The notes under the pieces were generated by a model that was not told where the DNA came from, ran no database searches, and was given only the letters and a program-made list of their open reading frames with translations. Source: Marinomonas lutimaris (GTDB taxonomy: Bacteria > Pseudomonadota > Gammaproteobacteria > Pseudomonadales > Marinomonadaceae). From it: DNA of 64,000 bases. Shown here in pieces: positions 8,924 to 58,017 of the stretch; within the stretch, counting starts at the first letter, position 1, and every line of letters begins with the position of its first letter. The translations under genes and the position numbers were made by a program. The stretch is from contig NZ_JAHLLW010000019.1 in assembly GCF_019426345.1 (NCBI RefSeq), positions 1 through 64,000 on the forward strand. Direction: 5' to 3'.

Positions 8924-9285
8924 TTCTAAACACACCTTAAGCAAAATTCGTTAATGAGGACATAAAAGCCAATCTGGCATCATGTTCAAGTAATAATAGC
9001 CGACCATTGTACTCGTTGACCCTATTTCGCTCAATGGCGATTCCACGCAAGCAATGAATAAGTATTTCCCCTTACTTATTTTACGCGCTAAGACAAGAAA
9101 ACCGCCCCACATCCAGACAAAATCGACCTAACAAACAGACAAAATCGACATAACAAAAAACTTTACACTTTTATGCATAAAAATAGGACAAAATAAGGAA
9201 CTATAATGCTGTTTTAAAGTCCATTTTGTTAGATAATTCGTATTGTTTACATATTTGTATTTTTCATTTTTTCATGGGTAATTTC
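8924..9285. other. A+T-rich intergenic region with hairpin and tandem repeat
   Basis: No gene is visible. The stretch holds an inverted repeat AATAAGTA/TACTTATT (9057-9080), the 22-bp tandem repeat listed separately, and presumably the promoters of the glycyl-tRNA synthetase gene (leftward) and the DUF3429 gene (rightward). Confidence 0.6.
9114..9157. repeat. 22-bp tandem duplication
   Basis: CAGACAAAATCGAC-C/A-TAACAAA occurs twice in direct succession with one mismatch. It lies between divergent genes and its function is unknown; two units are too few for an array. Confidence 0.85.
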
Positions 9286-9726
9286 ATGCGTTCTTATAAG
9301 CTCCTAGCAACAACACTTGCTACATTGAGCATAATCCCTTTTGTCCTGACAACTTATTTAAGCCTTAGCAACCATGCTTTTCTAGGGAAAACAGGCGTCA
9401 CTCTTTTTGCCATTTATAGCGGCCTATCTCTCAGTTTTATTAGCGGCATAATTTGGGGACGAGTAATAGAGCTACCTGAAAGTGCTAATGGCAAGAGACT
9501 ACTTATCTCCTGCTATATTCTCATATCTTCAGCTTGGTGCGCTTTACTAATGAATACGCCTGAGCTTTCAGTCGTATTATTACTACTCGGCTTTATTAGT
9601 ATTTATTGGGTAGAAAACCGTTGGTTGAAGCAATCAAATGCTAATAAGCCCTTTTTGCCTTTGCATTTTGGTTTAACCACTACCATATGCATCATGCATT
9701 TGCTTGTTTTGTACCCACGTTATTAA
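9286..9726 (+). CDS. DUF3429 family inner-membrane protein
   Basis: A small integral membrane protein of about 146 residues with roughly five hydrophobic helices and the FISGIIWGRVIEL segment characteristic of DUF3429. Starts 12 or 60 bases further upstream are also in frame; none has a convincing ribosome site, and the chosen one avoids a Cys/His/Phe-rich leader unlike the family. The following genes encode a DCC-family thiol protein and an SDR enzyme, a grouping I associate with photolyase/light-stress clusters in marine gammaproteobacteria, but no photolyase is present. Function unknown. Confidence 0.7.
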   Translation: MRSYKLLATTLATLSIIPFVLTTYLSLSNHAFLGKTGVTLFAIYSGLSLSFISGIIWGRVIELPESANGKRLLISCYILISSAWCALLMNTPELSVVLLLLGFISIYWVENRWLKQSNANKPFLPLHFGLTTTICIMHLLVLYPRY

Positions 9727-38798: not shown

Positions 38799-38906
38799 AG
38801 AAAAACACTCTGAAAAATAAAGTGCATCATAGCAAATACCGCGTTAAATGTTCATTTGACCACATTAAATCATCTGATATTAACCGCTATGCTGAAAAAT
38901 TCATTA

Positions 38907-39338
38907 TCACTCATAGTGCTGGCACTCAAATATCAATTGCCCTGTCGGGTAAGGCTCTGATTTATCACCATAATGAAGCAGCTCCAACCTGCTATGCTGC
39001 TTACCTTCTCTAGGATTGAAGTAAGATGAACTTAGAGCCCTTACAGGAGCTGCTGGGCTTGGAGGTTGCACTTCTAGGTAAAAGTCCAAAATATATGGCA
39101 TATTGGTAACATCAACGCGGTTGGCACTAACTATAAAAATATAATCTTTCAAGATGAACAACGGATTAGCTGAAGGATTCAAAGCATCAAGCACTACCGT
39201 TTTCTCTTGCATATCATCTAGATCAAAGCTCGGATAATCTATCGGAATCAAATTACAGCTAAGTTCAAGTTGTGAGGAACGAGCATGTGCTGTCACGGTT
39301 AGTAAACTGAAAAGTACAGTCATTAGGAATTTGGACAT
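38907..39338 (-). CDS. Secreted protein of unknown function
   Basis: A 143-residue protein with a clear signal peptide (MSKFLMTVLFSLLTVTAHA) and a small mature part holding two cysteines (ELSCNL and LIFECQHYE) positioned to close a disulfide from end to end. I do not recognise the family. It borders an A+T-rich cluster of unrecognised genes but faces away from it. Confidence 0.6.
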   Translation of the reverse strand: MSKFLMTVLFSLLTVTAHARSSQLELSCNLIPIDYPSFDLDDMQEKTVVLDALNPSANPLFILKDYIFIVSANRVDVTNMPYILDFYLEVQPPSPAAPVRALSSSYFNPREGKQHSRLELLHYGDKSEPYPTGQLIFECQHYE

Positions 39339-39454
39339 TTAGATGAGCCCTTAGTACAAACAGTAAAAATATAGTAAGCATTATTGACAATATATCATCT
39401 TAAATATAGGGTATTTTTCTTCTGGAAATGTTTTTATTATAAAAGGAATTAGAA

Positions 39455-40060
39455 ATGGATATAGCTTCCTCAAGATCTACACCATTATCACTTAAAGAAA
39501 AAAAAGAACTTGAAATAAAATGTAGCAATCGTCTGAACTGGACAGATGGTGGGTATTGGATAGGGAGCGGTAAGGCTCCAAACTGTTTTATTAAAGAAAA
39601 AGCAAGTAGTAGATCTTCACATACCATCACTTTCCCTACAGATGCTTTAGCAAACAAATGGAATTCTGAGTGGGAAGAAAAAATAAGGTATGGAGGCTAT
39701 TTAGCATCAGCTTTGTTAGGGCTTGGAACAGGATTTATAGCTAATACAGCTATCTCCTTTAGTGTATCAGTAATATCTAATATTGCTTTGGGAGAAACTC
39801 AAGCGCTAGTTGAATACCCTAAAATGGAAAGAGGCTGGAGCTACGAAATCATTTTTGAATATAGTTTTACTTGGTCACCACACCCTTATGGGTCTAGGCA
39901 GTTAATTCAAAAAGTTACAGGTATATCAAGAAATCAACTTGATCAAGAAGTGAATCGGAAATCGAATACTCAAAAGTACAGTTTAGACCAACTTCCAGAT
40001 GGGTTGGGACGCCTCTTGGCAAGCACACCTCCCAAAAATACGTCTTCGGTATATAAATAA
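39455..40060 (+). CDS. Unrecognised protein with hydrophobic glycine-rich centre
   Basis: A 201-residue protein without signal peptide. Polar ends flank a central hydrophobic block of some 35 residues (YLASALLGLGTGFIANTAISF and on) with glycine spacing that could form one or two membrane-inserted helices. The N-terminal half carries two cysteines and WTDGGYWIGSG; a WSYEIIFEYSFTW beta-like segment follows the hydrophobic block. An AAAGGAATTAG site precedes the ATG. Local base composition is more A+T-rich than the neighbours, suggesting later acquisition. One base separates it from the next gene. No function assigned. Confidence 0.6.
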   Translation: MDIASSRSTPLSLKEKKELEIKCSNRLNWTDGGYWIGSGKAPNCFIKEKASSRSSHTITFPTDALANKWNSEWEEKIRYGGYLASALLGLGTGFIANTAISFSVSVISNIALGETQALVEYPKMERGWSYEIIFEYSFTWSPHPYGSRQLIQKVTGISRNQLDQEVNRKSNTQKYSLDQLPDGLGRLLASTPPKNTSSVYK

Positions 40061-40061
40061 A

Positions 40062-40409
40062 ATGTATAAATTCTTTAAAAAATTCACTCTTTTTTTTATT
40101 ATTATATTATTTTCTAACCCAATATATTCTCAAGAAAATAACTTACAAAAAAAATGGAACATAAAAAAATTAATTTATTCCGACAACAGCGAGCTAAAAC
40201 TTGACAATGGAAATTTTATAATCATTGATCAAAATAGCATTTCAGAAGTCATGAGTGAATATGGAAATAGACGTTACCCATATTATAAAAAATCAAATAT
40301 TTTATATTTGAAATCAGGAGGTAGTGAGGTGGAATGGAAAATATTATTTATTGACGATAATAGCTTAACATTAGAAACTCCTATAGGAACGTACGTATTA
40401 GAAGAGTAA
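40062..40409 (+). CDS. Small secreted protein, coupled to the preceding gene
   Basis: A 115-residue protein with a signal peptide (FTLFFIIILFSNPIYSQ) and a mature domain of alternating beta-type segments (KWNIKKLIYSDNSELKLDNG..., EWKILFIDDNSLTLETPIG) reminiscent of small lipocalin-like barrels, though I cannot place it. The ATG lies one base after the upstream stop and has no ribosome site of its own, so translation is probably coupled. Very A+T-rich codons. Confidence 0.6.
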   Translation: MYKFFKKFTLFFIIILFSNPIYSQENNLQKKWNIKKLIYSDNSELKLDNGNFIIIDQNSISEVMSEYGNRRYPYYKKSNILYLKSGGSEVEWKILFIDDNSLTLETPIGTYVLEE

Positions 40410-40446
40410 TCTTAAAATTGTCCATTTTACTCGATGGAGCTTAAAT

Positions 40447-40755
40447 ATGACACCGAAATGCTTTAACTGTTCAAGTAATCTGTCCCTAGCGTGGTTCACT
40501 TTATCATTCAGCTCAACCAAGCATAGGTGTGTAAACTGCGGCACCTTACATGGTTTTACGAATAAACATAAAGCTGTAGGGCTACTGTTTATTATCCCTC
40601 TTTTTGCTTTATATATTTTTTCTGAATCGATAATACCTTGGGATATAGTAAGATTTTTAGTTCTACTAGCTTTGTCCCTTTCACTCGTCATTATAGTCCC
40701 AGGACAACACATACAAATATTGGACGACAGACTAGATATCAAAAAAAAAACCTAA
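40447..40755 (+). CDS. Small membrane protein with N-terminal zinc-ribbon motif
   Basis: A 102-residue protein starting MTPKCFNCSSN and continuing to HRCVNCGTLHG: two CxxC knuckles in the first 35 residues that should bind one zinc. Two hydrophobic helices (about residues 44-62 and 68-86) and a short Lys-rich tail follow. ATGGAGCTTAAAT precedes the ATG. Third member of a same-strand run of unrecognised genes; role unknown. Confidence 0.6.
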   Translation: MTPKCFNCSSNLSLAWFTLSFSSTKHRCVNCGTLHGFTNKHKAVGLLFIIPLFALYIFSESIIPWDIVRFLVLLALSLSLVIIVPGQHIQILDDRLDIKKKT

Positions 40756-40824
40756 AGCATCCTGATAAAAAATTTCACCTTATAAATATTTTAAGCGGGT
40801 AGTTTTTTACTAATGTTTTTGTCA

Positions 40825-41466
40825 TTAACTGCCCAACTTACTCAGCAGTATTTTAATGCCCGCAACACCAAACATCAGCGTGAAGGCAGCATCAAAGCCG
40901 CGTTTCATTTTAAAATAGCTTTGGCGAATTCTTGGATTCGAAAACAACACAGCGTAGCCCAAATTTATGCAGGCACTTTGAATCGTTAATAAGACAATCA
41001 CAGACAACAAACCTTGTGTGGAAACCGAACTCGGCATCCCCATGGCGAATAACGACCCTAGAAACAAAATCGCTTTAGGATTGGTTAAGTGGATGGCCAA
41101 ACCACGAAAATAAGCAGCACGTAAAGATGTCTGTTTGGTTTCTAGCGTGGCCAACATTTTGCTCGAATCCGATTTATTCACCATTGCTGAACGACAAGAT
41201 TTGTACGCTAAAAATAATAAATAGACTGCGCCAACATAACGTAAACTTTCGAATAGCCAGACATTCGCGTACAACACGGCACCTAAACCAAAGGCAGCCG
41301 AACAAGACCAAAATAGCGAGCCTGTGAGTATGCCTGATGCTAACGCCAAACCTTGCACTCGCCCCTTATTCATTGACGTTGACGCAATCGCCAATGTCGC
41401 AGGCCCAGGACTCGCCATAGCAACAAGCGCACCGATTAATATCAGGACATAGTGGATTTCTTGCAT
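40825..41466 (-). CDS. LysE/RhtB-family amino acid exporter
   Basis: A 213-residue inner-membrane protein with the LysE signature GALVAMASPGPATLAIASTSMNKGRVQGLALASG and about six helices, including HLTNPKAILFLGSLFAMG. Members export basic amino acids, homoserine, threonine or similar. Its ATG, behind GAGGTG, lies inside the 3' end of the upstream EamA gene, a 25-base overlap that suggests co-expression. Confidence 0.93.
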   Translation of the reverse strand: MQEIHYVLILIGALVAMASPGPATLAIASTSMNKGRVQGLALASGILTGSLFWSCSAAFGLGAVLYANVWLFESLRYVGAVYLLFLAYKSCRSAMVNKSDSSKMLATLETKQTSLRAAYFRGLAIHLTNPKAILFLGSLFAMGMPSSVSTQGLLSVIVLLTIQSACINLGYAVLFSNPRIRQSYFKMKRGFDAAFTLMFGVAGIKILLSKLGS

Positions 41467-56967: not shown

Positions 56968-58017
56968 ATGACATCTCAAACAAACTTCTTATTATTAGAA
57001 ACAAGAGACACCCTACATAAGTGGCTAAGTCTAGTCACAGGTGTACTCATACTATTTTTCAGCTTTCTTAATGTTGCTATCTTAAACCAAGCCACTATTG
57101 GCGCCATAGAAGCTATTTTTGGCCTGTTAAACTTATATTTTTTTAGATCTGCTTATCAAGGAAAAATATATAAATGGCATAGCTATATGCTAATTTTTTC
57201 TCTAACAACAACCGTCTTTTATGCTTTTTATTTTGCAGATCTAAGGGCTGGTTCTATTTACTGGTTACTTATCTTGCCACCTTTGTATTGCCTACTTACA
57301 GGACCAAAACTGGGGCTCTTTTATACAATTCTCCTTTCCATTCCAGCCATATCGATTCTGTTTATAAAATCCGATACTACTGATTTAATTCCCTACCGAT
57401 CGGTTCTAAATTTCGTACTGGCTTATTTCTTGTCCTACGCAATTTGCTATTTATATGAAACCCAATATGCGAAAAGTAGTCTGCTACTAGAAAAAATGGC
57501 CTTTCAAGACCCATTAACAGGCGCACAAAACCGCCATGCACTGAAGCTATTTTTTGACGATTTCAATAAAGATCCAGTGGATCCATTTCAAGAAGAACAA
57601 GAAGAAACACGCCTTCTAATTATTGATATTGATCTCTTCAAAAAAGTTAATGACGAATTCGGACATGATGTAGGTGATTCTGTACTGATTGAGATGGCTG
57701 AATTATTGCGTTACTGCACAGATAATGATGAGATTTATCGTATCGGAGGAGAAGAATTTTTAATTATATTAAAGGACCACACATCTACTCAAGCATTTGA
57801 TTTTGCAGAAAAAATCCGAAAGACAGTTGAAAATACAGTGTTTAGAACTCACCAGAAAAACATAAAAATTACCGTGAGTATTGGCATAGCAGAACTCAAA
57901 AAAGGCCAATCCTTTAGAGAATTTTTACGAGTCGCCGATAAAAACCTCTACTCAGCAAAGAATAAAGGGCGTAATTTAGTTCACTATGGTGCTATGAGTG
58001 TTACCGAAGCGGTCTAG
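56968..58017 (+). CDS. Membrane diguanylate cyclase, first of a tandem pair
   Basis: A 349-residue protein: about six N-terminal helices (residues 15-165) forming a MASE-like membrane sensor, then a GGDEF domain with DPLTGAQNRHAL, LLIIDIDLFKKVNDEFGHD and RIGGEEFLII. The GGEEF site looks active. No RxxD inhibitory site is present, so product feedback may be weak. The next gene is a clear paralogue, including the PYRSVLNF membrane segment. Confidence 0.93.
   Translation: MTSQTNFLLLETRDTLHKWLSLVTGVLILFFSFLNVAILNQATIGAIEAIFGLLNLYFFRSAYQGKIYKWHSYMLIFSLTTTVFYAFYFADLRAGSIYWLLILPPLYCLLTGPKLGLFYTILLSIPAISILFIKSDTTDLIPYRSVLNFVLAYFLSYAICYLYETQYAKSSLLLEKMAFQDPLTGAQNRHALKLFFDDFNKDPVDPFQEEQEETRLLIIDIDLFKKVNDEFGHDVGDSVLIEMAELLRYCTDNDEIYRIGGEEFLIILKDHTSTQAFDFAEKIRKTVENTVFRTHQKNIKITVSIGIAELKKGQSFREFLRVADKNLYSAKNKGRNLVHYGAMSVTEAV

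Follow-up and report, generated by a model that had tools for sequence, protein, structure and literature searches.

The closest described systems are effector–immunity pairs of type VI secretion systems (T6SS). Ssp6–Sip6 of Serratia marcescens combines a pore-forming effector with a two-helix immunity protein, whose 204-bp gene overlaps the effector gene by 4 nt; homologues of Ssp6 are reported from the Enterobacteriaceae/Enterobacterales (PMC6889166). The Ssp4–Sip4 family often lies far from T6SS genes and has one group in marine bacteria (PMC12669606). The Tme effectors disrupt membranes and carry a near-invariant DxxK preceding a membrane helix, and their diverse, mostly membrane-type Tmi immunity proteins are encoded immediately downstream (PMC7046647).

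How does the locus in Marinomonas lutimaris compare with these systems? Within the window—the whole 64,000-nt stretch of DNA that was analysed—gene A (39455–40060, + strand) encodes a protein of 201 aa and is followed by the small genes B and C. As in Ssp6–Sip6, the candidate effector is small, its action is unpredictable from its sequence, and a tiny gene lies downstream (PMC6889166). B is of the exported type, whereas Sip6 has two helices, and the likeness of A to Ssp6 is one of description. As in Ssp4–Sip4, a three-gene insertion with a small downstream gene sits inside a housekeeping cluster; however, Ssp4, which reaches residue 331, has 13 helices and a single sheet in its model, and Sip4 has four predicted membrane helices, the comparison of Ssp4 with the 201-aa A being one of length and modelled fold only (PMC12669606). 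The island also recalls Tme/Tmi in its layout, but the DxxK of Tme is absent from A, which places A outside that family. Among the relatives of A, a DxxK occurs at position 64, just before the apolar stretch, in the protein from UBA6940, and at position 210, near the end, in that from Kangiella. No known effector was linked to A through any of the family libraries searched. A further paper, which concerns a PoNe DNase pair (PMC13377157), is unrelated.

We propose, with a probability of roughly 0.45, that A is a small antibacterial effector that acts on membranes, is encoded as an orphan, and is probably delivered by the T6SS; it would work in the way of Ssp6–Sip6, with one or more downstream envelope proteins protecting the producer. 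We regard the foreign-looking island as a candidate set of contact-killing toxin–immunity genes.

The insert between lysE and epmA

In the window, the gap between lysE and epmA is filled by an insert of about 1.98 kb (38861–40837, ~1977 bp), delimited by aligning its flanks to four empty sites of congeners. At three of these four sites the left match ends at 38860 and the right match starts at 40838, while the fourth places the insert ends at 38847/40834. The junction matches overlap by 3–4 bp at three of the four, and the junction search reported no repeat. The insert contains A, B, C, and a divergent gene (38907–39338, − strand, 143 aa). The epmA gene itself is present in 47 of the 48 genomes of the genus, the own genome counted, and the region around it (~6–7 kb) was compared in 20 of the 46 other genomes. 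By match ends, lysE and epmA lie 52–71 bp apart in 10 of the 20 congener stretches; other DNA of ~1.2–2.4 kb separates them in five, and the remaining five stretches hold no lysE match. At E 1e-3, none of the four genes of the insert had a match in any of the 20 stretches.

The five congeners with other DNA at the site (L046, L048, L050, L056, and L059) encode there a protein of 271–302 aa, which we take to be of the LysR type, and a protein of 70–81 aa; in L046, an additional 324-aa protein is presumably Fic-like. A–C and the divergent gene are an accessory insert. No tRNA was found within the window, and neither A, B, C, nor the divergent gene matched a mobile-element family in Pfam, PHROGs, NCBIfam, or PADLOC. 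Promoter-like sites (8 versus 8.7 expected) and terminator-like sites (2 versus 1.4) occur at chance level.

The genes themselves are closely packed. The TAA stop codon of A (40058–40060) is followed, one base on, by the ATG of B (40062–40409, + strand, 115 aa), and C follows at 40447–40755 (+ strand, 102 aa). By eye, a Shine-Dalgarno sequence precedes A (AAGGAA) and C (GGAG), and none was seen ahead of the ATG of B. The position of B suggests its translational coupling to A; the B frame also contains a second, upstream ATG at 39999, within A. The three genes probably share one transcript. In 2000 first-order Markov sequences per region, ATG-started ORFs of equal length arose 0 times for A, 0 times for B, and once for C. 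An antisense ORF of 114 aa with a TTG start (40398–40742) overlaps C; we prefer C because of its ATG, its ribosome site, and its family match.

A preliminary description of this DNA had placed three same-strand genes here, the second beginning one base after the first and lacking a ribosome site, and this layout agrees with our analysis. Its three-gene unit exists, yet the unit is larger, since the divergent 143-aa gene shares the insert. It had also called the genes low in G+C. All three (A 0.375, B 0.247, C 0.359) lie below the mean of the window ORFs (0.434, sd 0.037; 62 non-nested ORFs of at least 100 aa, in which the antisense ORF occupies the place of C), but only B is sharply low, because two ORFs outside the island (56968–58017 and 9226–9726) equal A and C in this respect. 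In the ranking of the 62 ORFs, the extended ORF of B has the lowest value and A the fifth lowest.

Gene A and its two relatives

Two relatives of A were found, one in a UBA6940 metagenome-assembled genome (MAG; 32–35% identity) and one in a Kangiella MAG (29–30%). The pairwise local alignment scores among the three proteins are 258, 186, and 153, whereas shuffled sequences reached at most 48, 50, and 58, and the frame is conserved as a protein. All three share the motif W-x-GSGK-x-PNC (W35 to C44 in A), and the conserved residues comprise C23, N28, W35, G37-S-G-K40, P42-N-C44, W69-N-S71, R78, and G81-Y82. Cys23 and Cys44 are the only cysteines of A, and each of the three members has exactly two aligned cysteines, spaced by 21 residues, and no others.

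The most apolar 36-residue stretch of A, residues 77–112, includes a single charged residue and five glycines, in line with the glycine-rich hydrophobic centre noted in the preliminary description. A Gly-rich apolar stretch is present in all three proteins, with 1, 3, and 1 charged residues per 36. By hydropathy, the apolar peak of A is modest (best 19-residue mean 1.6) and is not a clear membrane helix; nor is an export signal visible by this measure, because the N-terminus is not hydrophobic.

How widely does A occur? It was matched in two of 193 related genomes, namely the own genome and G065, which belongs to UBA6940. With a two-row profile it was detected in one of 369 genomes sampled across the class (the own genome), and with a three-row profile in two of 390 sampled across the order (the own genome and G065), one of 398 across the phylum (the own genome), and one of 40 from the Kangiella family; these genome sets overlap. 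A contig scan with two peptide patterns returned 43 stretches, of which two were confirmed, one from UBA6940 (the same region as in G065) and one from the Kangiella sp. MAG. No relative was found among phages, plasmids, or viral contigs, where two-pattern viral scans can miss distant ones. Judged by its sequences, A represents a conserved, rare, and genuine protein family.

Searches of A and its relatives against Pfam, PHROGs, NCBIfam, and PADLOC gave chance-level lines only (lowest E 0.038), the Kangiella relative drawing a HigB-like line at E 0.12 only, and sequence searches of solved structures likewise stayed at chance level. The family was not found in the literature on Marinomonas or on Kangiella with T6SS, which does not exclude its publication. 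The structure model of A is weak (mean pLDDT 60.3, below 50 at residues 83–120) and mixes helix and strand. Foldseek searches with this model returned nothing at E <=0.001 from the PDB or from BFVD, where the best row was a 504-residue protein (E 8.7e-3, probability 0.99, TM 0.32). With VIA-align 2, the top match was an anti-sigma factor complex (Z 6.1, rmsd 3.3, 88 residues aligned), and RCD-1, gasdermin B, and a MACPF protein appeared at Z 3.7–4.1 with an rmsd of ~7, among many unrelated rows. Such matches, with a best Z of 6.1, may simply reflect a common arrangement, and we base no conclusion on them.

The small neighbours of A

B has one hydrophobic segment, residues 4–22, which is signal-peptide-like by hydropathy, as had been noted before, and B is a candidate periplasmic immunity partner. 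We take B to be coding because of its length and this signal-peptide-like start. Of the 193 genomes searched, the own genome alone had a match to B, and no relative was found on plasmids or viral contigs. Its structure model has a pLDDT of 47.3. B was also considered as a small lipocalin-like domain, for which Pfam, PHROGs, and NCBIfam gave no support; a paper on lipocone domains (PMC12419801) is unrelated.

C has the two CxxC knuckles (CFNC and CVNC) and the two hydrophobic segments (45–63 and 67–85) attributed to it previously, and is either a second candidate partner or a passenger. It aligns to positions 1–83 of the 93 in the NCBIfam model TIGR04104 (cxxc_20_cxxc, putative zinc finger proteins) with an E of 2.1e-7 and 31.2 bits, below the curated cut-off of 45, and the model name gives no function. 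No relative of C was found on plasmids, and our literature search for TIGR04104 found no paper. The earlier statement that the genes match no familiar family is accurate for A, which matches none beyond chance, and fits B, whose relatives were not found, but it overlooked the sub-threshold resemblance of C. The divergent 143-aa protein, hydrophobic at residues 1–19, likewise has a signal-peptide-like N-terminus; it matched nothing in Pfam, NCBIfam, or PADLOC, one PHROG line was at chance level (E 0.099), and no relative of its gene was found on plasmids.

The loci of the two relatives were compared with that of A. In the Kangiella MAG, the A relative abuts, at its stop codon, an ORF of 58 aa with two hydrophobic segments. 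In UBA6940, ORFs of 68 and 71 aa lie downstream and are convergent with the A relative (L003:2128-2672, − strand), so they are not its operon partners; they are alike (z 40), and in each a single hydrophobic segment exceeds the threshold. In all three loci, the gene that follows A downstream codes for a small protein, either exported or of the membrane type; the small ORF starts within one base of the A stop codon in two of them and is convergent in the third. Apart from the 68/71-aa pair, no two of the six neighbour proteins (B, C, and those of 143, 58, 68, and 71 aa) are similar (z −2.1 to 2.0). A thus stays constant while its neighbours change, and this dissimilarity is best read as the pattern of fast-changing immunity genes, which would make the immunity partners of A fast-changing and of the envelope type. 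In both MAG loci (L005 and L007), a gene read as NAD kinase lies within a few kb of the A relative, with intervening genes that differ between the two; this proximity may be a coincidence.

The preliminary description had likened A and B to a toxin–immunity pair. This guess finds partial support. The conservation of A, its Gly-rich apolar centre, and the small membrane-type ORFs beside its relatives speak for a toxin-like gene accompanied by small envelope proteins. An invariable pairing of A with B is not supported, as neither relative adjoins a B-like protein and no likeness of the small neighbours to B or C was detectable. Independent occurrence of the genes had been named as evidence against the pairing; because no B-like protein lies beside the relatives, A does occur independently of B, but it was not found apart from some small envelope partner.

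The same variability invites another account, that A is not a toxin and that the insert assembles unrelated envelope-associated genes without a common function. The mutual dissimilarity of B, C, and the divergent gene would agree with this, as would the differing neighbours of the A relatives and the fact that no activity is known for A. On the other hand, a small exported or membrane-type product downstream of A in three of three loci, starting within one base in two, counts against it, and we consider this account unlikely.

T6SS context and the proposed mode of action

The TssB/VipA family PF05591 is present above its cut-off in all three A-bearing genomes. For comparison, it occurs in 64 of the 193 related genomes, a set that includes the own genome and G065, and in 14 of the 40 Kangiella-family genomes, which include the A-bearing MAG; without the A-bearing genomes the counts are 62 of 191 and 13 of 39. 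At these latter rates three of three would be expected by chance about once in 28, so the co-occurrence is suggestive only. A scan of 20 chosen ORFs placed TssC in the clusters of all three genomes and TssM in the own and Kangiella clusters; the own cluster and that of UBA6940 also contain ClpV-like ATPases, and Hcp and VgrG, sought in the own genome only, are in its cluster. Within the stretches read at the three loci, T6SS genes do not adjoin A or its relatives, and none of these loci is inside a T6SS cluster. No MIX, FIX, RIX, WHIX, PAAR, VgrG, or Hcp marker was matched in Pfam or NCBIfam, libraries from which models may be missing. Cargo effectors may lack a marker domain. Directly downstream of the own VgrG, three ORFs (L064:6866-9431, G000:C8) have no Pfam match at 1e-5 and are further candidate effector or immunity genes.

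A phage-defence or abortive-infection cassette would also take the form of a small accessory insert, at a site occupied by different DNA in 5 of the 20 congener stretches, with a rare, patchily distributed, membrane-type effector. Here A, together with B and C and with or without the divergent gene, would depolarise the membrane of its own cell, and the envelope partners would restrain it. However, PADLOC gave no match, the insert contains no recognised sensor, nuclease, or signalling domain, relatives of A were not found in phages, plasmids, or viral contigs, and the two invariant cysteines suggest that A works outside the cytoplasm, so that such a cassette appears quite improbable. We give equally little credence to A as the toxin of an ordinary toxin–antitoxin or bacteriocin-type pair, acting internally or released by lysis without the T6SS: the positional coupling of A and B and the small membrane-type ORF abutting the Kangiella relative would suit it, but a partner with a signal peptide or membrane segments is unlike cytosolic antitoxins, toxin–antitoxin families were matched at chance level only, and T6SS genes are present in three of three genomes.

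We favour the membrane-acting effector because A combines the lack of a visible export signal with an apolar, Gly-rich centre and paired cysteines, and because it has small envelope neighbours, an orphan insertion in a housekeeping locus, and a T6SS host. The signal peptide of B, in place of membrane helices, counts against it, as do the small number of family members, the distance of the A loci from T6SS genes, the weak structure models, the modest apolar peak of A, and the convergent orientation of the UBA6940 ORFs.

Delivery by the host T6SS would most likely bring A into the periplasm of a rival cell. A disulfide between Cys23 and Cys44 would form outside the cytoplasm, and the Gly-rich apolar centre would insert into the rival membrane. 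The producer would be protected by the small downstream envelope protein B, possibly together with C.

Going further, we tentatively suggest that A is the founding member of a new T6SS effector family, defined by the motif W-x-GSGK-x-PNC together with the Gly-rich apolar centre. Its members would insert into membranes and be stabilised by a disulfide, and their immunity genes would be exchanged as a whole, the immunity being an exported soluble protein in one lineage and tiny membrane proteins in others. If this is true, the few T6SS toxins that act on membranes would be joined by a rare family without a match in the libraries searched, and a single effector would be seen to work with immunity proteins built on different plans, including one that is apparently soluble and exported. 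The lysE–epmA site would then be a concrete insertion site at which to look for such cargo across the genus.
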